DNA of 64,000 nt from Coffea arabica (lineage: Eukaryota > Streptophyta > Magnoliopsida > Gentianales > Rubiaceae): the NCBI RefSeq assembly GCF_036785885.1, contig NC_092323.1, positions 14,330,501 to 14,394,500 on the forward strand. Direction: 5' to 3'. Each line of letters begins with the position of its first letter. Position 1 is the stretch's first letter. Positions 18,539 through 63,277 of the stretch are shown piece by piece. Under the pieces are notes generated by a model, which saw only the letters and a program-made list of their open reading frames with translations, made no database searches and was not told where the DNA came from. The translations under genes and the position numbers were made by a program.

Positions 18539-18668
18539 GTGTAGGTGGGTAAGTTGTTCCTATGGTTGTGGAACGTGTTGGATTGTATAGATGTTTTGGT
18601 GAATTTAAGGTAAGGTAGGATAGGTTGCTTTTGGAATTCTGTTGTGGTGGTGTTTTGTTTTGGCGGGA

Positions 18669-21600
18669 ATGGCTGAGGACGGCCTACGAATAGGTGGGCT
18701 ATCTCCTGGGTTGGCTGTAGTGTTAAACGGTGAAGATAGGAGAGAGGGCTCTCAAAGAAGTCGTCTTGTTTCGTACTGTGATGATTTTGGTGATCAGTCT
18801 GTGGAAAGGACTCTTGAACACATATTTGATCTTCCTTATAAGACCATTAATCAGCTGACTTGTCCTGTAAATACTGGAGTAGTTCGTTCTATTATAAAGA
18901 ATCACTTCAGGAAGTACCATGTAGATTTGGGGAGTGGTCGTGATGTAAATAGGGATGGGGTGTGTACCACTGCTGATGGTTGTGGTTCACAAGTTGTTGG
19001 GATTGAAGAGTCGAGCATTTGTGGCGATATTCGAATTACTAAGCCATCTTTGCTTTTGGAGAGTCATGCCTTGTTCAGCAGCGTGAGGGCAAATGCCTGT
19101 GTGTGGAAGGGGAGATGGATGTATGAAGTAACACTTGAATCTTCTGGTGTACAGCAGCTTGGTTGGGCTACTCTTTCCTGTCCTTTTACTGATCATAAAG
19201 GTGTAGGGGATGCTGATGATTCCTATGCATATGATGGGAAAAGGGTCTGTAAATGGAACAAGGGAGCTGAGGCTTATGGCCAGTCTTGGGTTGTTGGTGA
19301 TGTAATTGGGTGTTGCATAGATTTGGATCATGACGAGATATCTTTTTACAGAAATGGTGTCTCACTTGGGGTTGCATTCAGAGGGATTCGTAAGATGGTT
19401 CCTGGATTGGGATATCATCCTGCAGTTTCATTGTCTCAAGGCGAATGTTGCGAGTTGAACTTTGGGGCATACCCTTTTAAATATCCTGTTGACGGTTTTC
19501 TTCCTATTCAGTCTCCCCCCAAAGTCAACTCCTTTGCTGTTCATTTGCTTTGTTGCTTCTCCAGGCTGTTAGAGTTGCAGCATGAAGCGAGGGTGGGATT
19601 TGGGTCAGTCGAGAAATTTAGAAGATTGAAAAGATTTGCGTCATTCAAGGAACTTTATCACCCTGTCTCTCAAGGAATATCTGAGGAATTATTTTCTTCT
19701 CTTGGTATTGAAACTGGAAGTGCAGCATACATTGCAAGGGGTCCACTTTTGTCGTTCTTTTTGGAAGCCTTTAAAGTGCATCCACCGCATGACTATACAA
19801 ATTTGGACAGAATAATTGATTGCTTCCTAGAGATTCAGGACTCACGAAAACTTTTTGAGCATCTTATATTAGCCCTTTCATCTGCATGCAAAACTGCAGT
19901 GTGGGTCCTTTCTGACTTTCCCTATTCAGGATCATATATCTATCTTGCTTTGGCATGTCATTTATTAAGGAAAGAGGAACTGATGATTCTCTGGTGGAAG
20001 TCTGCAGATTTTGAATATGTTTTTGAAGGATTCCTATCACGAAAGAGTCCTAACAAGCAGGATCTTCAATCTTTGATGCCTTCTGTCTGGTGGCCAGGTT
20101 CATGTGAAGACCTGTCCAGCGAGAGTAGCATGGTTCTGACGACTACAGCTTTATCCGAAGCCATCAATATGGTATGCCTTTGAGTGATTGCTTCTGATTA
20201 CTTTTTTTCATCCTCTTGCTTTTGGAGAAATAATCACCTCGTTCTGCACATGCTCCTCTATTCTCACTGAAATTTAGAAAATCAATTACTGATTTTTTGG
20301 GAAGTTGAGACTTTAGAATGAACAGAGTTTTCTCCACTGATTAATTTAGAGAAGTAAAAAACTCTTTAGAAGAGTGATTACACATGTAAAAACTACTCAT
20401 GGGTCATTTCTTGAAAATGAAGAACTTAAGTGTATTGGTAAGTTGCTTTGAAAAGGTAAAACGGTTGATTAGACAGAAAATGCACACTCTTCGATGTTTT
20501 TCTTGAAGTTTTCAGTTTCTGACAGGATTGCTTCATATGTTGATAGTATTTGGGTTCAGTATTATATAAAAGGCGAGACATAGGTTGATTGCATAATGGT
20601 ACCTTAAATCATTAATAAAACTATAATATAGCTCATTAATTTTTTGCTATATTGCCTACAGGTTTTTAACTACTTGACCTTTTGTAGTTGCGATATTTGA
20701 GTATGGATGAGTTTGTGAAATGGATTTTTGTGGAGACACTAAAGGAGCAGTCAGTGATCTGTTCTCTATATTGTCCGTGCCCTTTCATTCTTCCTATTTT
20801 TTCCAAATGTACAAATACAATATTGTCCTTAGTTTCTTAGTATTTGTTGTAGTGCCAGTTAAAAATTAGGCATTGCATTTTTCTTAAACGATCACCTGAA
20901 ATCTAGTTTTTAAAGGGGGGACTAATATTGAGAATAGAGCGGGCATTTATAGTGGAAATGTGGCTGAAGCTGAGATTCCTGGATTGATGTTTGTCGCGTT
21001 TAAGTTGCATCTTTTGCAACTAATGTTCAAAAGATCAATGGAATTCTTCCAATTCTGTAAAAAAATACCTCATGATCAAGGGACTTTATTTTTTGGAGGA
21101 CCTGCAACTAAAAAGAAGGGGAAAAAAATACTGGGGAAATTAGGAATCTTAATTTTTAAACTGCATAGCTGGAATGCATTTATCCTTCAGCTTTGATTCT
21201 CCTGTGTTTGTCCTTGTAACTTACATTTCTTTGAGACTTAATCGAATGGCCTGGAATACCTGATTATGATTGAACTCTTTAGTGCATGGACTCTCTCGCC
21301 CTCTCTCTCTCTCTCTCTCTCTCGATATTCCCTGTCCACTATTATTCTGTAAATCTGGGTAGCTGCCAAGTATTTGGGAGAAATATTGCTTATCATAACA
21401 AGCAACTGTTGCTTTTTTAAAGTACCTTATACAATGCAATTGTTCATTTCTCTTTTGCTTTTGCACTTTTTTATTTTACAAAGTATGGCTTATCTAGATT
21501 TCCACATCCCAAAATAAATTGGGTTTGATTTGGGTGAAGCAAAATTTTGCATTATAGTTAAGCCATTAGAAGATTAAATAATGTGTTTTTACAGGTTGAA

Positions 21601-36230: not shown

Positions 36231-36591
36231 TCAGTTGGTTTGACCTCCATTCCCTCTTTCTATTGGTGGCCTAGGAGGTGATGCAGCAAGAGTTCTTGAA
36301 CTAATTGTTTCACTTGGAAGACCTTCTTCCTATTTAATATTATCAAATGCCCGTTAATGATATCCTACAAAATTGGTTAATGCTAATGAACATAATGCAT
36401 ATGTTACTACAAGATTTCAGCTATATATTTGGAGATATACCTCTTTAGTAGTCCAAGAAAGGTTATTGATCTTCATCTCTTGGTGGATATGTACTGTTGA
36501 AGGTATAATCATGCCAGCCAAAGCATTTGAGAAAAAATCTACTCGTAATTTGAACCCAACGAATGCAAAGGATTCCTGCAAAATCAGCCAT
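36231..36591 (-). pseudogene. PROPEP-like locus A, frameshifted (elicitor peptide precursor)
   Basis: Exon 2 (36329-36231) is well formed: after a TTAAATAG acceptor it encodes 32 aa beginning EEGLPSETISS and ending RPPIERGNGGQTN plus stop, the basic/Pro-rich GQ-x-N ending of plant elicitor peptides. A matching exon 1 lies just upstream on the same strand. It opens at 36591 with MADFAGILCI and contains RFFLKCFGW, equivalent to LLQCLG in the two intact copies. Its frame meets TAA after DEDQ. Running on to a good donor at 36440 gives NNLSWTTKE, which would join EEGLP in phase 0, but the exon is 151 nt, one base off. So either one base is extra (mutation or assembly error) or another donor is used that I missed. 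The PROPEP role is extracellular danger peptide supply for PEPR receptors; here inferred from shape. Confidence 0.6.
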
Positions 36592-37594
36592 TACTATATT
36601 TTTTCTGATTCACTTCCAATACTTTTTTCTTCAACTTCTTTTCAAAGGGTACAGCGAAACAAACTAAGAAAAATATACAATCACCCACACAAAACACATC
36701 TCTTTCCCCTCAATTTATGTTGAAATTGTCGATCGTCATCATTATCTATTACCTGCTGTAATTATTATTTTGCTTTCCAGGCGCATGCAGAAAATTTATT
36801 TCAGGAAACACTAACTGAGGACCACATACACGTTTAGGGGAATTTCACACCAACCAAAATTGAAAGCATACTAGGAATGAAGTTGTTCTGCAATAAAATG
36901 GGGAGTGAATTCAATTGTTAACCACCGAATTGAACAATGTATCTTAGGGAAAAATTTTCAGTCTCAAAACTTTTATGGCATCTTCTGCTGCTAATAGAAA
37001 TAGCAAAAAATGCCTTTAGCCAAGTTGTTAGTAGCATATAATTCAAAATCTTATGGCATTACTTTTAGAATCCCTCATAACACACGTTGGAAACTAATTG
37101 CGCACATTATATGAGCCATTCATCTAAGGATTCAATTCGAGATAGGGATAATACCTTCAACACAGGAACAAACATGATCTTATTGGGTTGGAATTCTTTG
37201 TAATTGGCTGACTAATTGTAAAAAAACAATTGGATGGCACAGATGAAGCTGATTTGAGTTGTGGTTAATGATCTTTAGTGAGTGGTGGTAAAATTTTTGA
37301 TGATTTTTCTCATCCTTAGCATTCACATTTATCGTTATAGCGTCTACATCATTGTGTTAGTACATATATTATATGATACAATAGATGCTCAAAATTACAT
37401 GGCAAAATGCCCACAAGATATAGATAAACGATGATGTAATACTGCAGGCAATACTGCTACGTAAAGATCCACTAGTAACTAGACTGCAAAGGAATATCCA
37501 ATGATTATCTATAGATTAATGCATGTCGATAAGGTTGTAATATCAGAATTGAAACTTGGGCTAGCTCCGAAGCACTCTGATTACTTGTGCGCGA

Positions 37595-37877
37595 TCGATA
37601 AGCTGGAATGATCTTCGAATGCTTGGCTCTTGATGTTACGATACCAAAAACCTCAAACATATCCAAATCTGTTGGCTGAATGTTATCAGCAAACTCCCAA
37701 TTGAAGCAATGCACCAATTGTGCTAGCAAAAAACCAACAACAGTGAGCCCCAGTTGCAAACCTGGGCAACTTCTTCTGCCTCAGCCGCATGGTAAAAGTT
37801 GGAAATCTTTTGTGTGTGTGGATGATGATCTGCACTTTTTTCTGAATATTGAATTCATCGACTGTGCAATCCTGCAT
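37595..37877 (-). pseudogene. Cytochrome P450 3' fragment (CYP71-clan type)
   Basis: On the minus strand the pieces run in the right order for a P450 C-terminus. DCTVDEFNIQKKVQIIIHTH (meander entry) is followed directly by DFQLLPCG-stop-GRRSCPG, the heme-binding loop. Then come [20 protein letters not shown] and a tail ending PAYR. Damage: about 25-30 residues normally between these parts are deleted; the loop Phe of FxxGxRxCxG reads Cys; a TGA interrupts the loop; and an in-frame tail runs beyond the usual end. The heme Cys is still present. No upstream exons (I-helix, ExxR) were found nearby, so this is a relic, with no function expected. Confidence 0.85.
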
Positions 37878-38240
37878 TGATTCTTATGGGGGAGCAGTAG
37901 TGGTGCCTGGCACAGGATGAAGCCTCATTGATTCTTTGACAACCATGTTCAAATACTTTATCATTATGCGATTTGACAATTAAGAAATTCTTCCTTGTAC
38001 CAAAAATTGAACACAAATATTAATTGGGGTAACACCAAAAATGTAAAACTTTTCAAATACAAAAAGCACGAAGAACAAATTGGAGATTACATGGTACAAT
38101 GTAACATATAGCCAAGTGTTTATTGAATTGAAAAGTACATTTTAATGCAAAGCATCTAGCCTTTGCTAAATTTTCTTCACATCTACACAATATAAATGCA
38201 AAAAAGCAATTGTACGTGAACAAATTCTGTAGAGCATCTC

Positions 38241-38573
38241 TCAGAACTTTCCCTCCCCCTTGTTAGTCTGGCCAGGTCCCCCTACTGCAGGAGCTGGTCT
38301 CTCAGGATTCCTTCTCTTACAAGGCCTAGGGTGTCTTTTGTTAGTGTCATCTTCCTGCTAAATATGCAATTATTGACACCATTAGCGATCAAAATTGAAT
38401 ACATACAAACATATACACACACATATACATTGATCACCCAGAAAAAAATTAAACCTTACATGTTCATGGCTGGGCCTATTTGTCTCAAAAGAATCAAAAC
38501 CCAAGCACTGAAGCAGATTCTTGATGCCAAGTGGAAGGCAAGAGCAAGAACTGGAGTATGCAGAAGGAGCCAT
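38241..38573 (-). CDS. PROPEP-like elicitor peptide precursor B
   Basis: Two exons (38573-38460 and 38354-38241) join in phase 0 to 75 aa. Exon 1 starts MAPSAYSSSCSCLPLGI and contains KNLLQCLGF, the short amphipathic helix typical of PROPEP N-termini (Arabidopsis family members have ILKCLGL-type helices). Exon 2 is acidic then strongly basic, with RPCKRRNPERPAPAVGGPGQ followed by TN and a six-residue tail. PGQ-x-N is the signature of the active Pep segment. There is no signal peptide, as expected for PROPEPs, which are released by metacaspase cleavage after wounding and sensed by PEPR1/2. The residues past the N are unusual, since most Peps end at that position. Donor GTAAGG, acceptor TTTAGCAG. 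A TATA-like box lies upstream. Not confirmed by search. Confidence 0.75.
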
Positions 38574-38630
38574 TTTGTGTCTCTTTTGTGGAAATTTGTG
38601 CCGTTTTCCTGTCCCAAATATCTAAGTCTG

Positions 38631-38640
38631 CATTTATACT
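38631..38640 (-). promoter_or_regulatory. TATA-like box of PROPEP-like gene B
   Basis: Minus-strand AGTATAAATG lies about 60 bases before the start codon at 38573, giving a short leader. Position and sequence fit a core promoter; not proven. Confidence 0.45.
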
Positions 38641-39030
38641 ACGTTAGTCTTTGGCCTCACCAGGACATCCAATTTAGTTAGGTGCTTTAAAAATATTAAA
38701 ACGACAAATCCATTACATGTTGTTACTGTTTAATCACAAAAATGTTGGTTACAATATACAACTTGCATTATTAATTATGCTATAGTTTATAATTCATGAA
38801 ATAAACAAGAAAAAGTGGCGCCTAAAAGAATCAGAAATGGTGGAGTTGTTCCAACCTTTTACAGATACTGATTGTTTGGTTCTCGATGACTTTTGGGAGG
38901 TACTCTTAATTTTTGTACTCTTAATTATGTAGGCAATTAAAATAGTCCCGGAAATAATTGTGTGTACCAATGTTTTTTCTTTTCAAAAATTAGCGATACT
39001 ATCAGAGATCAAATTTTTTTCTATCGGAGA

Positions 39031-39151
39031 AACAATTCACAAGTTAATACCAATACTATCATTGACAGTGAACCCCAAGCTCTTATCATATTTACATGAG
39101 ACCAATGTATATATATATGACAGAAATTTTGGTATTAACTTGTAAATTGTT
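39031..39151. repeat. 121-bp foldback with 23-bp arms
   Basis: AACAATTCACAAGTTAATAC plus CAA at 39031-39053 is the inverse of 39129-39151 with one mismatch, separated by 75 bases. It could be a MITE or a small hairpin-RNA source. It lies between PROPEP-like copies B and C. Confidence 0.75.
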
Positions 39152-39929
39152 TTGGCCTTTTTCTAATCAAATAAACATGAGCTGAACATTCCTGCATGCA
39201 TGATTGCCTTCTCCAGCTACAGTGTCACGATAGCAAACCAACCCCAAGTGGTGAGATTTACAATGGTATCACATCTTGGTTGTTGGAGGGCAAAATAATA
39301 ATCTAGAGAATTAATAGAGAAGGGGAAGAATTAAGAAAATCACCTGTTTTTCCCATGCATTGTTCTCAAAAATGTTGGAAAACTCTTGCATTGAGTCTCT
39401 ATTGTGTCACTGATCAAACTTCTTGATTAGTTGCAAGGAATCTTTTGAGCACTAAGAAATCAAGAATTACCAGCAATAATTGTACTAACCCTAAAATATT
39501 ATTCAAATATCCATGACTTGGATTGGTAAGGATATTCTATCTTCTTTTACACTTCTTGATACTACACAATATTATAAACTGACACTTGTCCTATGTTTTT
39601 ATTGTACCATATTTATTGTATATATCCATTGGACAATTGAAGTGGAGACGTAATAACTATATCGAGTTATTATAACTTCCAGCTTAAGAAACTTACACAT
39701 ACCAAATTCACTAAAAATTTGCTTTAAAATTTTCAGGGAAGTAATTAGGAAAAAAAAAAAAGAATAATTTCCCACAACTTTGGCAGTGTATATAAGCCAG
39801 TGGCAGTGGGGTACTAACTGTGTCAGCAAATGGCATTTTCAGAGACTCAGTCTATGATCGTCAACTTTCTTGTTCGACTGCACATAAAAGAATATGAAGG
39901 TACGAAGATCTAATGAATCTTAGGATTAT

Positions 39930-40190
39930 GACTTCGAATATATTGTAATGAGAATTGATTTTATTCCACCTCCTTAGTAACGATGTTTGAACTAAAGTTG
40001 AGATTTCACGAGTTAGAAATTCTGAGTTCAAATTTCATTACGCGTGAAATTTTTCTTTTTTTTACTATTTACGGGTTCATTTGTATCGTTATTGAATTGT
40101 AATTCTTATCATTTTTTGATTAGATTTTTTAATTGCATTAGATCTACAAGGACAACCTCCTTGTAATTAATGTTGTCAAAAAAAAAATGA
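39930..40190 (+). mobile_element. Possible degenerate SINE
   Basis: Contains a box B-like GAGTTCAAATTTC near 40020, ends in TTGTCAAAAAAAAA near 40188, and is flanked by AATGAATCTTAGG and AATGAACTTAGG, a possible target duplication with one indel. Box A is not convincing. Confidence 0.4.
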
Positions 40191-40370
40191 ACTTAGGTCG
40201 ACATAATCACATGACTGCAAAATTCAAGCAACATATATTATAGAGAAAGCAAGTAAAAACGTGCATCATGTTAATTCTCAATTTTACACGAAATCAACTT
40301 CATATGTTTAACATTTATTGCACATCACATTATGGCGATTTTCTTGCTTAGAAGAACAAATCCCACAGCA

Positions 40371-40378
40371 ATATATAG
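40371..40378 (+). promoter_or_regulatory. TATA-like box of PROPEP-like gene C
   Basis: ATATATAG lies ~75 bases upstream of the ATG at 40450, consistent with a leader of about 45 nt. Confidence 0.45.
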
Positions 40379-40449
40379 ACCATAGTTCAAGAATAATACA
40401 ACACAGTCGCATTACAGAGAGGAAAGGTAATCTGAGGAAATTCATAAAG

Positions 40450-41184
40450 ATGGCAAATGATGATTCATCTTCTCGATGCTTTCCATTTGACTTCCAAAAA
40501 CTGCTTCAATGCTTGGGTCTCCAGAAGAAGATTCCCGGGTCAGAGGAAAACCCTTCTGCCATTGAACCCACTGCAGCAGTACGAACATCCACCTATTTTA
40601 CTTGTTTTATTTTTCATAATGACTTTTTTTTTTTTTTTTTTATTTGGGTGAACCAATAGTTTTAGCAGTCACAGCTAATGATGCCCTGGGTAGCCATTAG
40701 GGATTTGAAGCACCTTGTAGCAAACTGGAATTACTTATAAATAAATTGTGGGCTAGGTTCTCTCTCTCTCTCTCTCTTTTTTTGGTGAGTAATTTACTTA
40801 CAAAAAAGTGAAGTCTTCGAAACTCTTAACATATTTAGCATCACAATTTTTAAAATTTAGTTGTGGAACAAATAAGTATTTCACGATTAAGTGCTATCAA
40901 AATTTTTATGATACTTTTGACAGTGTCGTGATTTTTTTCTATACGACTTACAATGGCGCTTCGTTCTAGTGTCGGAATACCACCACTATAAATTATCTAT
41001 GGCGCTTTTTCACAACCCTAAATAGTCTAGTCTATTTTCTTGTAATGAGATGATTATAATGCTAAGAATAGTTCATATTCTAGGTTGGTCACTTTGAATC
41101 TGAATCTTGTTTCAACAGGAGACTACTCTGCGAGCTGCGCCTTCAAGACCTCCAATAAAGACGAAGCCTGGCCAGAGTCATTAG
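40450..41184 (+). CDS. PROPEP-like elicitor peptide precursor C
   Basis: Two exons (40450-40578 and 41119-41184) join in phase 0 to 64 aa. Exon 1 encodes MANDDSSSRCFPFDFQKLLQ and then CLGLQKK, the same leader pattern and LLQCLG helix as copy B. Exon 2 after a TTTCAACAG acceptor encodes ETTLRAAPSRPPIKTKPGQS and then H plus stop, a basic Pro-rich peptide with the PGQ signature at the extreme C-terminus as in canonical Peps, with His in place of the usual Asn. I chose the ATG at 40450 over an upstream in-frame one at 40318 because the latter would lie before the TATA-like box and adds unrelated sequence. The 540-bp intron is AT-rich and includes a CT microsatellite. Divergent orientation to copy B suggests inverted duplication. 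Role inferred: wound- and pathogen-linked danger peptide precursor. Confidence 0.72.
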
Positions 41185-42643: not shown

Positions 42644-45600
42644 TTAGTCTTCCTTTCGATGTTTACAACTGTGAGATCTCTCAGAGGTATAACCTAAGCC
42701 AAAACACTTGAGAATAGCCTGTTTAGCAAGATTCATATAATGGCAGGGGTGGTTTCCCTGTCCCAAAAGCCTCAGAAGGGCTATATCCTTTACTGACGCT
42801 TCATCTCTTTCTTCAATTTCTTCTCCTATGGTAGCTTTATATGCACTTGCCTCCGTCTCCCTTTGAATGCTTTGACTTTCTTCAACCTGCAGGAAACACT
42901 AAGTTCATAAGCCTTTCTTTGGATCAAAACTACATAGACATGCATTATGAGCTGGAACTTCAGGTTTAGTCATACAAATAGCATGAAGGATGTCCGGAAC
43001 GAAATAGTGCAAATAGCTGATTATAGCTAACAACTCTTCTTATCAAAGACAACCATTTTAATCATGCATCTGCTCACTGACTGCAATATCAACTTTCCTT
43101 GCCTTAAGCAAGTAATTCCTTATATGACAACAATAGTAGTGCTATATGTTATAGGAAACGATTTAATTGCTACATGACAATACTCAGGATGCTCAGTTAT
43201 GCTTAGTTTCAGCATTTGGTTTAAGTTGCAAAGTCCCTATATACTTGAGCATTCAACATATGAGGAGTTGTGTTTGATGGTGTTTATATATGAGAGATAT
43301 TTTATGAAACAAGTTCTGGAATGTCCTAGATCATGAGAGAAATTAAACTCACAAATGTCTTGGTTTAGTAGGTTATTTGGTTGTGAGGTTCTATTCATTT
43401 CACATTCTCAGTAAGAAGTCATGTTCACAATTCTTTACTTGTCCAATTTGAAAATTAAAAAGAGAATAGATGCTGCCACCTTTATTTTATCTGTAATCCA
43501 CTATTTTCATTCTTAAGCATTTAAACAGAAACAAGCATGTAACTACAGCAGTTGGTCAACTTATTAGTTCAACAACTTCAAGCACTTTTCATGTCGTAGC
43601 AAAAATTTTAATTTCTATAGCAGTTATTCTTCTTGTTTCTTGTAGGAGAAAGATTTTCTTTTCTTTTTTTTTTAAAAGGTCAAGCATGCCTGTTCAGTTC
43701 TCGGCTATTTGGGACAAGGGATTCAAGAAAAAAACAGGCACACATCTCCAATTGTTGGAAAAAAAAAAAGAAAATTAAATCACAATCAATATAAAATAAG
43801 TACACTTTAATGACCGTCAAAATGAAAACTACAATTTTCATCAAAGAAAAAAAAAGGTAGGTGACCTGTAGAATCAGTGATTGTCAAGACTAGACAGAAA
43901 ATTTTAAACTACAGCTTGTTTCTTCTACTATTTTTAACCCAATTTCAGCTTTTCTTCAATAATGTTCTGAGAAGAAGTTTTCTGCTTCAATACCTCCCAA
44001 CTAAAAAGATGGTTTCCACAGCAGGCAACAGTACCATGGGTCAGTGATCAACTAGTACCTCTCAAGAAAACATTACAGGAATAAAACAAGCTACAATCTA
44101 ACATGGCTTAGGATCTATAAACTTCTCTTCTAGAAAATAGCTCAGAATGCAAATAGAACAGCTTCTATTGGCCTGATTTCACCACAATAACAACCAAAAA
44201 ATTTTTTTTGTCACCTTTTATAAAAATATATTTTTCCAATTTTGGCTCAAGTTAAATTGATTACTTTTCTATAACCTGTATATATGTTAGCCGTTTTCTG
44301 TAACTGGTTACACTTTTAGAGTTGTACATTATGTTAGTCCTAAAAATTCCCAATTTTTTGGAAGCCGCATGTCTAAAGTTAGAACACGTTTTCATTTTAG
44401 TAACACCATGCACAAAAGGAACTTATATATAATTCTGAGTTTTCCTTTACCGTCGGTTGTTCAACTAACACTTGAAATTATTATTTTTTTAAAAAAAGGT
44501 AGATTTCATTAAAGGCATTGTAAAGTAAGAAATTATTACGATATAGAGTTGTCCAGTTGGAATCGGACTGCTTAAGCCATTCGTGATTAGCCACAAATAT
44601 TCAAAACTTCAAAAAACAGTGGAAATATTCTATTCGGAATTCACAAAAAACAGAGGCAAAATCGGAAAGACATCAGATAAAGCAATATCTTGAAGTACTT
44701 CAAACAGAACAGTAAAAGCTATTTCAACTTCTTGAAAAGTTTAATACCTTATCAGTAGTGATCAGCTAGATTCATAGACAAGCTTGTACCACATAGGAAA
44801 GCAGATCACTATTTTCAACATATTCCAGCAAATAAAAACACTCAAAGTATGTTCCATTCCACTAAGACAAGATATCCTTTTCTTTGTCCTAATTATGACT
44901 TTTGCCAATGGAAATTACCTCTAAAAATCTCATTTAGCAATTATTAAATGCAGTTTGATTTGTATTGCAGATACCCAACAAAAAGGCTCATACTTTTTAA
45001 TAAGAACTACACAGCCACCGGCAATTTTCTGAAGATAGAATTTTCTAACTATTGACCCCCTGAAAATCCATTATCTCAGTCTTGACTCCATAAGCTCCTT
45101 CTGTGAAACTTCTACTTCCCAGGCTACCTCATTAAATTCCAGGTTATAATGTACAAAATTTTGGTCAAACCACCATGTTTACTACATATGCCATCCTTCA
45201 ACACGTTTACCACTTTTTCTTTTGAATAATTAAAACTCCCAACCCCACACAACCACCACCACCACCTCGAAAAAAAAATCTAAAAGCTTCCCAAAATCCC
45301 TACTCACAGCCCACGGAAAAAAGCAGCAACAATAATTGACCACTTTCGCCAACCAAATATAGTACCTAAATTTATTCCAATGTCATGTTGCTTTACGAAA
45401 AAAAAATTTAGCTGCAAAAAAAAACTACGGGGCAAATTAAATCAAGAAATGTCCTAACTTTGCTACTCAGCAATCTTTCAATCTCAATTCCCTCCTGGCA
45501 ACTACACCAAAAGTAGTAATGGAAGAAAACAAACAGAAATAAAAAAAAAAAGGATATTCAATGAGGAGGAAATACTGAAAAGAATAGATTTGGCATCAGA

Positions 45601-53185: not shown

Positions 53186-54211
53186 ATGGTCCAAGAGAAA
53201 AAGGTTGTTGAAGATGTATCAGGATGGCTTAGAGTCTTTGACGATGGTTCAGTAGATAGAACATGGACTGGACCTCGAGAGGTAAAGTTCATGTCTGAAT
53301 CTGCTCCTCCCCATGAAGAATTTATCGATGGAGTCGCCACCAAGGATGTTATAATCGACCCGGAATCAGGCCTTCAAGTTCGAATCTATCTCCCTCAAAA
53401 CACTGATGACAAGAACTTGAACAATCATCATAAACTTCCCATCATTCTTCATTTCCATGGAGGCGGATTTTGCATCAGCCAAGCTGACTGGTTCATGTAC
53501 TACACAGTTTACACTCGCCTGGCTCGTTCTGCCGGAGCCATAGTTGTATCCGTCTACCTCCGGCGCGCGCCTGAGCACCGCCTCCCTGCCCCCTGTGACG
53601 ATGGATATGCAGCGCTCCTGTGGCTAAGATCTTTAGCCCAAGGTAAAGTTGAGCCTGAGCCCTGGCTCGGGGAAAATGCTGATTTTTCCCGTGTGTTTCT
53701 TATAGGTGATAGCTCAGGGGGCAATATAGTTCACCAGGTGGCTGCTCGATCTGGGAATGATGATTTGAAACCTGTAAAAGTTGCCGGGGCGATCCCAATT
53801 CATCCGGGATTCGTCAGGAAAGAAAGGAGCAAGTCTGAACAAGAGCAACCACAGTCGCCTTTCTTGACTTTGGATATGGTGGACAAGTTCTTGAACTTGG
53901 CTTTGCCAATTGGAAGCACGAAAGATCATCCCATAACTTGTCCCATGAGGGATGGTGTTGTGCCAAAGATTCAGAATCTGAATCTTCCTCCTTATCTCTT
54001 CTGCGTGGCGGATTGTGATCTCATCAAGGATACTGAAATGGAGTTCTATGAGGCCATGAAGAAGGCAGGTAAAGATGTGGAATTGCTCCTCAATTCTGGC
54101 GTTGGTCATAGCTTTTATCTGAACAAGATTGCTTTTGACAATGATCCAACTACTGCTAAGGAAACTGAAAAGCTATTCACAGGGATTGTAGAATTCATCA
54201 AGAAGCATTGA
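53186..54211 (+). CDS. HSR203J: HSR203J-like carboxylesterase (plant CXE family)
   Basis: Encodes a 341-aa single-exon alpha/beta hydrolase. Motifs: oxyanion-hole HGGGF at 91-95; GDSSGGN at 174-180 with nucleophile Ser176; probable acid Asp278 in ADCDLIKD; and His308 in GVGHSF. This is a complete triad of the hormone-sensitive-lipase/CXE class (GID1 relatives that keep catalysis). The N-terminus (VSGWLRVFDDGSVDRTWTGP) and the DWFMYYTVYTRLARSAGA stretch closely match what I recall of tobacco HSR203J, a serine esterase induced during the hypersensitive response. Probable role: hydrolysis of short acyl esters in stressed or dying cells, cytosolic (no signal peptide). The ATG at 53186 matches the family start. 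Intact, normal length, codon use unremarkable. Confidence 0.92.
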   Translation: MVQEKKVVEDVSGWLRVFDDGSVDRTWTGPREVKFMSESAPPHEEFIDGVATKDVIIDPESGLQVRIYLPQNTDDKNLNNHHKLPIILHFHGGGFCISQADWFMYYTVYTRLARSAGAIVVSVYLRRAPEHRLPAPCDDGYAALLWLRSLAQGKVEPEPWLGENADFSRVFLIGDSSGGNIVHQVAARSGNDDLKPVKVAGAIPIHPGFVRKERSKSEQEQPQSPFLTLDMVDKFLNLALPIGSTKDHPITCPMRDGVVPKIQNLNLPPYLFCVADCDLIKDTEMEFYEAMKKAGKDVELLLNSGVGHSFYLNKIAFDNDPTTAKETEKLFTGIVEFIKKH

Positions 54212-62560: not shown

Positions 62561-63277
62561 ATGGGGGAGCCAAGAGTTAGCACTAGCTCTCAATCATCAA
62601 CCTCATCAAAACCTCCTCCACCTGCGCCACCATTGTCCCTTCTTCAACCATCAACCAAGAAAAAAAACAAGCCAAAAGTTCTTCGCGTTTTTCGATCTGT
62701 TTTTCGATCATTTCCCATCATATCACCTGCATGCAAGTTCCCCACTCTTCCGGGAGGCAAAATACCGGATGGAAGGAACAATGCCGGCTCGCGAATCACG
62801 GGCACGTTGTTCGGATACCGGAAAGGCCGCGTTAGCCTTTCCATACAAGAAAACCCTAGGACTCTCCCCACGTTGGTTGTAGAGCTGGCCATGCAGACCA
62901 CCGTATTGCAAAGGGAAATGAGCATAGGGATGGTTAGGATTGCATTAGAATGCGAAAAGAGGCCTGAAAAGGACAAGACAAAAGTGTTAGAGGAGCCCAT
63001 GTGGACAATGTATTGTAATGGGAAGAAAGCTGGTTATGGGGTCAAAAGGGAGGCTTCAGAGGAAGACTTGTACGTCATGGAAGTTCTCAAGGCCATTTCC
63101 ATGGGCGCCGGCGTCTTGCCTGGGAAATCAGAGGTGGAGGGGGCAGATGGGGAAATAGCATATATTCGGGCACATTTTGAACGTGTGGTTGGATCAAAGG
63201 ACTCGGAGACACTGTACATGTTGAGCCCAGAAGGGAACAATGGACCTGAATTGAGTATTTTCTTTGTAAGGGTATGA
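62561..63277 (+). CDS. MIZU-KUSSEI1-like protein (DUF617)
   Basis: Encodes 238 aa in a single exon. I chose the ATG at 62561 because no in-frame ATG occurs upstream in the open frame. The N-terminus is Ser/Pro-rich (about 1-60) with a basic patch KKKNKPKVLRVFRSVFRS. The DUF617 domain fills residues 78-238: RITGTLFGYRKGRVSLSIQE, then PTLVVELAMQTTVLQREMSI, EEPMWTMYCNGKKAGYGVKR, and a C-terminal SPEGNNGPELSIFFVRV that matches the family end. MIZ1 is needed for root hydrotropism and acts at the ER membrane. Most paralogues are uncharacterised, so MIZ1 function itself should not be assumed. Intact. Confidence 0.93.
   Translation: MGEPRVSTSSQSSTSSKPPPPAPPLSLLQPSTKKKNKPKVLRVFRSVFRSFPIISPACKFPTLPGGKIPDGRNNAGSRITGTLFGYRKGRVSLSIQENPRTLPTLVVELAMQTTVLQREMSIGMVRIALECEKRPEKDKTKVLEEPMWTMYCNGKKAGYGVKREASEEDLYVMEVLKAISMGAGVLPGKSEVEGADGEIAYIRAHFERVVGSKDSETLYMLSPEGNNGPELSIFFVRV

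Follow-up and report, generated by a model that had tools for sequence, protein, structure and literature searches.

Does a 64 kb stretch of the coffee (Coffea arabica) genome, C14:14330501-14394500 (hereafter the window), carry a cluster of genes encoding PROPEPs, the precursors of plant elicitor peptides (Peps)? Three loci (A, B and C) inside 5 kb each pair the motif of a helix-encoding exon with that of a Pep-encoding exon, and a fourth (D) shows an exon-1 frame only; A, B and D are on the minus strand and C on the plus strand. It is highly probable that these loci represent a small PROPEP cluster in this genome with two subgenomes, and that B and C are two-exon PROPEP genes. Judged on their sequences, the loci are additional members of a known plant immune-signal family, with predicted expression and activity; B and C appear intact, A is doubtful and D looks like a relic. 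PROPEP clusters are not new in kind; no report of this one appears among the titles and abstract openings dealing with coffee PROPEPs or with PROPEP synteny and tandem arrays.

An initial annotation of the window had described A, B and C as PROPEP genes sharing two exons and a phase-0 intron. The coordinates it gave are correct when re-read from the sequence, and the three different peptide ends that it listed are present (GGQTN in A, PGQTN followed by six residues in B, PGQSH in C). The common architecture holds for B and C and fails for A, in which the helix frame ends before the strong donor. Likewise, PROPEP identity is borne out for B and C by their architecture, helix motif, Pep end and likeness to the Arabidopsis peptides AtPep2 and AtPep6 and to a Pfam-positive coffee gene pair; for A, the Pep exon fits and the phase-0 gene as described does not. 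The count of three loci was incomplete, as D had been overlooked. The loci may also form the lineage-specific danger-signal array that the annotation envisaged, although clusters of PROPEPs are known already and, of its three loci, only C is retained on the homeologous chromosome.

Architecture and relatives of loci B and C

B, C and a PROPEP gene present on C19 and C20 (Table 1) are alike in having two coding exons, an intron in phase 0 and Glu as the first residue of exon 2; the C19/C20 gene exceeds the cut-off (26.2 bits) of the Pfam family Pep1_7 (PF17232) on both contigs (33.7 bits; E=5.3e-8 for the joined C20 protein). In Rosaceae, the Pep and the N-terminal part are also on two distinct exons (PMC5782389). 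The peptide lies in its own last exon at the C-terminus in B and C, and in A only as separate exons or through weak joins, whereas an ILKCLGL-type N-terminal helix is present in all four loci. The joined protein of B (75 aa) is open through both exons and that of C has 64 aa. In AtPep1 numbering (PMC4526913), B keeps Gly17, Pro19, Gln21 and Asn23, A keeps Gly17, Gln21 and Asn23 with Gly replacing Pro19, and C keeps Pro19 and Gln21. Ser15 is found in none of the three; Solanaceae Peps carry Gly at this place (PMC4526913). C-terminal tails beyond the Pep end, as in B, are also known from AtPep2, AtPep4 and AtPep5 (PMC10902123). As to a secretion signal, the analysis covered a hydropathy scan, with maximal 10-residue means of 1.28 for B, 0.92 for C, 1.09 for the C19/C20 PROPEP and 1.97 for A. 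No EKE-type motif was found on reading the proteins of A, B and C; the C19/C20 PROPEP has EKD.

This C19/C20 gene probably corresponds to the Coffea PROPEP that Zelman et al. (2024, PMC11289955) published, since that paper describes coffee PROPEPs that carry EKD, with one sequence per coffee species; the match is to this description and not to the published letters. Between C19 and C20, exon 1 shows five synonymous and four amino-acid-changing base differences, and exon 2 one synonymous and no changing difference, the protein of the Pep exon being identical.

Splice sites were scored with a matrix for which only large differences between scores are meaningful. The donor of B scores 6.6 bits; among the six of its 83 joins that were listed, a rival donor reaches 6.7 bits in phase 2, but with acceptors inside exon 2. 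Among the six listed of the 25 joins of C, one donor scores higher than the one retained (4.2 bits, phase 2), at the cost of part of exon 1 and of exon 2.

Table 1. Coordinates of the features discussed (positions without a contig name are those of the window; a slash marks a splice border)
Feature	Position	Strand	Description
Locus A, helix-bearing open reading frame	36463..36591	-	FFLKCFGW, ATG 36591, stop; frame differs from that of the strong donor
Locus A, Pep-like exon	36231..36329	-	...SPPRPPIERGNGGQTN, GGQTN end, stop, acceptor TAG/GA
Locus B, coding exon 1	38460..38573	-	ATG 38573, 38 aa, helix IKNLLQCLGF
Locus B, intron	38355..38459	-	phase 0, donor CAT/GTAAGG, tandem TAGCAG/GA acceptor
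Locus B, exon 2	38241..38354	-	basic Pep-like peptide, GGPGQTN + KGEGKF, stop
Locus C, coding exon 1	40450..40578	+	ATG 40450, 43 aa, helix FQKLLQCLGL
Locus C, intron	40579..41118	+	phase 0, donor GCA/GTACGA, acceptor CAG/GA
Locus C, exon 2	41119..41184	+	Pep-like peptide ETTLRAAPSRPPIKTKPGQSH and stop
Locus D, PROPEP-like exon-1 frame	42647..42898	-	NHPCHYMNLAKQAILKCFGL, ILKCFGL; stop 42646-42644; from genome-wide Pfam scan
Segment with loci A and B, absent from C13	35925..39107	.	3.2 kb
RKP-type E3 ligase gene, N-terminal part	18666..20180	+	RKP_N E=6.1e-62, SPRY E=3.4e-31
Carboxylesterase-like gene	53186-54208		between cluster and DUF617 gene
DUF617 gene	62561..63274	+	PF04759 E=4e-72
Coffee PROPEP pair	C20:6549643 (L013), C19:5244812 (L014)		Pep1_7 above cut-off on both contigs
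PEPR-type receptor pair	C8:360792-362927 (L051), C7:410940-413075 (L052)

Exon 1 links these loci to one another: the pairs B and C, B and the C19/C20 gene, and D and the C19/C20 gene (three of ten) score above all of 2000 residue shuffles. Exon 2 was also aligned to eight AtPeps, with p <0.01 in 6 of the 32 coffee-AtPep comparisons. All three Pep exons of the window approach AtPep6 (uncorrected shuffle p of 0.0025 for C, 0.001 for B and 0.0065 for A), and that of B also approaches AtPep2 (p 0.001, likewise uncorrected); the scores of B, 47 to AtPep2 and 45 to AtPep6, are the highest of the set.

Upstream of C (39786-39900, plus strand), reading shows an ATG frame (MAFSETQSMIVNFLVRLHIKEYE) together with a TATA-like stretch and a donor-like GTACGA; this may or may not be a leader exon of C.

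Might such loci arise by chance?

A motif pair was defined as a helix motif followed on the same strand, within 1.5 kb, by a C-terminal motif, regardless of frame and splice sites. The window holds three pairs and each of 200 dinucleotide shuffles none, the shuffles containing on average 0.055 helix motifs and 0.225 C-terminal motifs; the four helix-motif matches of the window correspond to loci A-D. Other coffee loci (99,539 bases, a set that leaves out 21 loci situated in the window, on C13 or at the PROPEP of C19/C20) contain no helix motifs, two C-terminal motifs and no pair, and 80 kb of C13 yields one pair, which is locus C. The motif classes had been widened so as to take in these loci, and were thus partly shaped on them; they also miss the C19/C20 PROPEP, which ends in NPQTN, so that the test is neither unbiased nor complete. 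It is nonetheless very improbable that the loci are chance PROPEP-like open frames in AT-rich intergenic DNA: that idea can draw on the shortness of the exons, the weakness of single-locus scores and the widening of the motifs once the loci had been seen, but it is opposed by the empty shuffles and comparison loci, by the similarity of the exons to one another and by the conservation of C in the homeolog.

Evidence against two PROPEP genes

Several results weigh against B and C as PROPEP genes. None of the four window loci exceeds the Pep1_7 cut-off: the joined protein of B reaches E=0.0084 and 17.0 bits (19.0 with one extra Gln), and C has no match at E<=10, either with exon 1 alone or joined. 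The donor of C is weak (2.4 bits), and is kept as such in the homeolog on C13. C carries Thr at the position of Gly17 and His in place of Asn23; ZmPep1 likewise ends in His (PMC4526913). The single coding difference between C and its C13 copy lies in codon 2 of the second exon and alters the amino acid, and B has no second copy that could serve for a selection test. Four of the ten exon 1 pairs (A with C, A with the C19/C20 gene, B with D, C with the C19/C20 gene) have p >0.05. In the AtPep comparisons, 26 of 32 have p >=0.01, and for the C19/C20 peptide, which has the best support as a Pep in this set, none of eight has p <0.05, so that this shuffle test is weak both ways. Finally, full-length genome queries with B and C miss each other and the C19/C20 PROPEP: B retrieves only its own two exons (one candidate scored) and C its own locus and homeolog, so the divergence must be high. 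PROPEPs of different plant families are reported to have little sequence in common (PMC4526913).

Loci A and D

The helix frame of A terminates at 36465-36463, ahead of a strong donor (GAG/GTATAT, 8.7 bits) that lies in another frame, and a phase-0 join including the helix was rejected for this reason. The strong donor reaches exon 2 in phase 0 only from the ATGs at 36512 and 36476, without the helix. From ATG 36591, 22 joins can be made, the best donor among the six listed scoring 2.9 bits, in phase 1; one phase-1 join (donor ACA/GTACAT, poor acceptor AAG/AA) retains the helix and nearly the whole Pep exon. It appears doubtful that A works through either route. The phase-1 donor is no weaker than that of C, and the join from 36512 has the 8.7-bit donor with a Pep exon open to GGQTN; against this, the phase-1 acceptor is poor (pyrimidine share 0.38 versus 0.5 for TAG/GA) and the join breaks with the phase 0 seen in B, C and the C19/C20 gene, the route from 36512 has neither helix nor Pfam match, and there is no second copy for a selection test. 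Pep1_7 gave no match to the exons of A apart or to the 36512 join, and a match at E 0.074 (14.0 bits) was discounted, as it arises only with the unsupported phase-0 join. The genome search with A returned the two pieces of A itself and two further places at chance level (E 4.3 and 5.1), and no convincing second place. On balance, A is probably a copy in decay whose Pep exon can still be read.

The genome-wide Pep1_7 scan gave seven matches: the C19/C20 pair, D (E=0.00074, 20.4 bits, below the cut-off) with its copy on C13, and three weak places (C18, C20 at 4.1 Mb and C19 at 2.6 Mb; L016, L018 and L019; E 1.3-7.5) that were rejected as PROPEPs for want of a helix motif. No Pep-exon motif was found downstream of D, and its frame differs from C13 at 3 of 249 counted bases, against 37 of 1720 in its surroundings, which indicates no clear constraint. 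For these two reasons D was rejected as a full gene; it is probably an exon-1 relic.

The homeologous chromosome

A 135-residue fragment on contig C2 matches two coffee enzymes, xanthosine methyltransferase (2eg5) and 3,7-dimethylxanthine methyltransferase (2efj), at about 1e-85, with the next entry at 4e-29. The 148 matches to this enzyme family fall on 20 of the contigs C1-C22 and on C47 and C53, many of them paired on adjacent contigs. Taken with the genome size (1.198 Gb in 131 contigs) and the close pairing of C13 with C14, this points to 11 contig pairs, as expected of Coffea arabica. The homeologous stretch, C13:12650001-12730000, aligns with the window in blocks of more than 150 bases with identities of 81-98%, which fall below 90% in two blocks. 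Of the three loci first named, only C is kept there; A and B are missing, and the genome searches showed no close copy elsewhere. In place of the segment containing them, C13:12696723-12696992 has about 270 unrelated bases, one end of which is GC-rich and repeat-like, and which might be the scar of a mobile element; the difference may reflect either a loss on C13 or a gain on C14. Over its 195 coding bases, C shows one difference from its homeolog (none in the 129 of exon 1, one in the 66 of exon 2), compared with 84 in 2572 aligned non-coding bases (Poisson p 0.013, Fisher p 0.028). The first exons of B and C have 42 bases in common at 81% identity in opposite orientation, which suggests that the two arose by inverted duplication.

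That only C works, with B, A and D as dying duplicates, so that the locus would consist of one PROPEP and debris rather than an array, is unlikely. The absence of A and B from the homeologous chromosome fits this idea, as do the lack of a phase-0 join retaining the helix in A and of a downstream Pep-exon motif in D. It is B that speaks against it, being open in both exons, with a good GTAAGG donor, a sub-threshold Pfam match and the top AtPep scores. The presence of two PROPEP genes, B and C, remains the preferred reading.

Two cytochrome P450 fragments lie on the minus strand between A and B (37505-37780 and 37884-37979; Pfam p450, E 0.0012 and 0.00021), within the segment that C13 lacks. Both matches are below the curated cut-off, and the fragments are probably a pseudogene.

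Genomic position, receptor and proposed mechanism

In the window, the cluster is flanked by an RKP and a DUF617 gene. Arabidopsis PROPEP6 (At2g22000) presumably has RKP (At2g22010) on one side and a DUF617 gene (At2g21990) on the other. If this order is right, the coffee cluster, rather than the C19/C20 gene, would be the positional counterpart of AtPROPEP6. Which asterid PROPEP is equivalent to AtPROPEP6 is a matter on which Zelman et al. (PMC11289955) dispute with Lori et al. The same source gives solanaceous plants one Pep each so far, with the exception of Solanum chilense.

A search with the ectodomain of AtPEPR1 (63 of 2755 candidates scored) found one strong place per subgenome, on C8 (706 bits) and C7 (704 bits), the next scoring 354. 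Both places show 52% identity to this ectodomain over 709 of 710 residues, and their open frames agree at 982 of 1011 aligned positions. Both PEPR-like genes keep Arg at AtPEPR1 position 487, a residue that presumably contacts the C-terminus of the peptide; the third-ranked kinase has Val. Searches of PDB sequences with locus C and with AtPep1 returned no match in either case.

In Arabidopsis, PROPEP1 and PROPEP6 are on the tonoplast and PROPEP1 is cleaved at Arg69 by metacaspase 4 (PMC13157962); on reading, an Arg is seen close to the likely peptide start in each of the Pep exons of A, B and C. The mechanism in coffee, from expression and processing to release and receptor binding, is most likely the same and might be pictured in the following way. 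Exon 1 would encode a short helix of amphipathic type and no evident signal for secretion, so that the precursor, by analogy with AtPROPEP1 and AtPROPEP6, would be kept inside the cell, and exon 2 would supply the basic, proline-rich peptide. Upon damage, a metacaspase-type protease would cut after an Arg or Lys close to the start of the peptide. Once freed, the C-terminal peptide would escape from the cell and be perceived by the PEPR-type receptor of adjacent cells, to which it would bind; this binding would trigger ethylene, reactive oxygen species and defence signalling.

More tentatively, and with somewhat less than even confidence, coffee may possess a second PROPEP locus, so far unreported, in the ancestral place of PROPEP6, which expanded to several differently ended peptides and was unequally kept on the subgenomes, one parent having given danger signals that the other lacks, all of them read by a receptor with one strong candidate gene per subgenome. 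Extra, differently ended Peps, if true, would alter how danger signalling in coffee is understood and provide candidate peptides for trials of induced resistance. From its position, the RKP-DUF617 interval could help to decide which asterid gene is the counterpart of AtPROPEP6, and the unequal retention between subgenomes would be a natural test of redundancy.

Comparison with known PROPEP systems

The C19/C20 PROPEP resembles the loci of the window in its two exons, phase-0 intron and helix (MLKCLGF), and its peptide, TPPRPGIRTGNPQTN, resembles SPPRPPIERGNGGQTN of A and PSRPPIKTKPGQSH of C, the three having a P-P/S-R-P-P/G-I core in common. It differs by its length (124 aa), acidic linker, SSSS tail and EKD, whereas the joined proteins of B and C are shorter and without EKD.

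As to AtPROPEP6, its peptide AtPep6 (ITAVLRRRPRPPPYSSGRPGQNN, PMC10902123) is the top-scoring of the eight AtPeps for exon 2 of C and of A, and the second, after AtPep2, for that of B; for A, however, AtPep7 has the smaller shuffle p despite the higher score of AtPep6. Unlike the coffee locus, which is a cluster, AtPROPEP6 is solitary on chromosome 2 (PMC12893677), and the coffee peptides lack the SSGRPGQ block of AtPep6.

Two PROPEP clusters are known on Arabidopsis chromosome 5 (PMC12893677). These clusters (PROPEP2/1/3 and PROPEP8/7/4/5) are similar to that of coffee in that clustered genes have differing peptide ends, some with C-terminal tails. Their chromosome neighbourhood is presumably other than that of the coffee cluster, and we infer that the coffee and Arabidopsis chromosome 5 clusters expanded independently.

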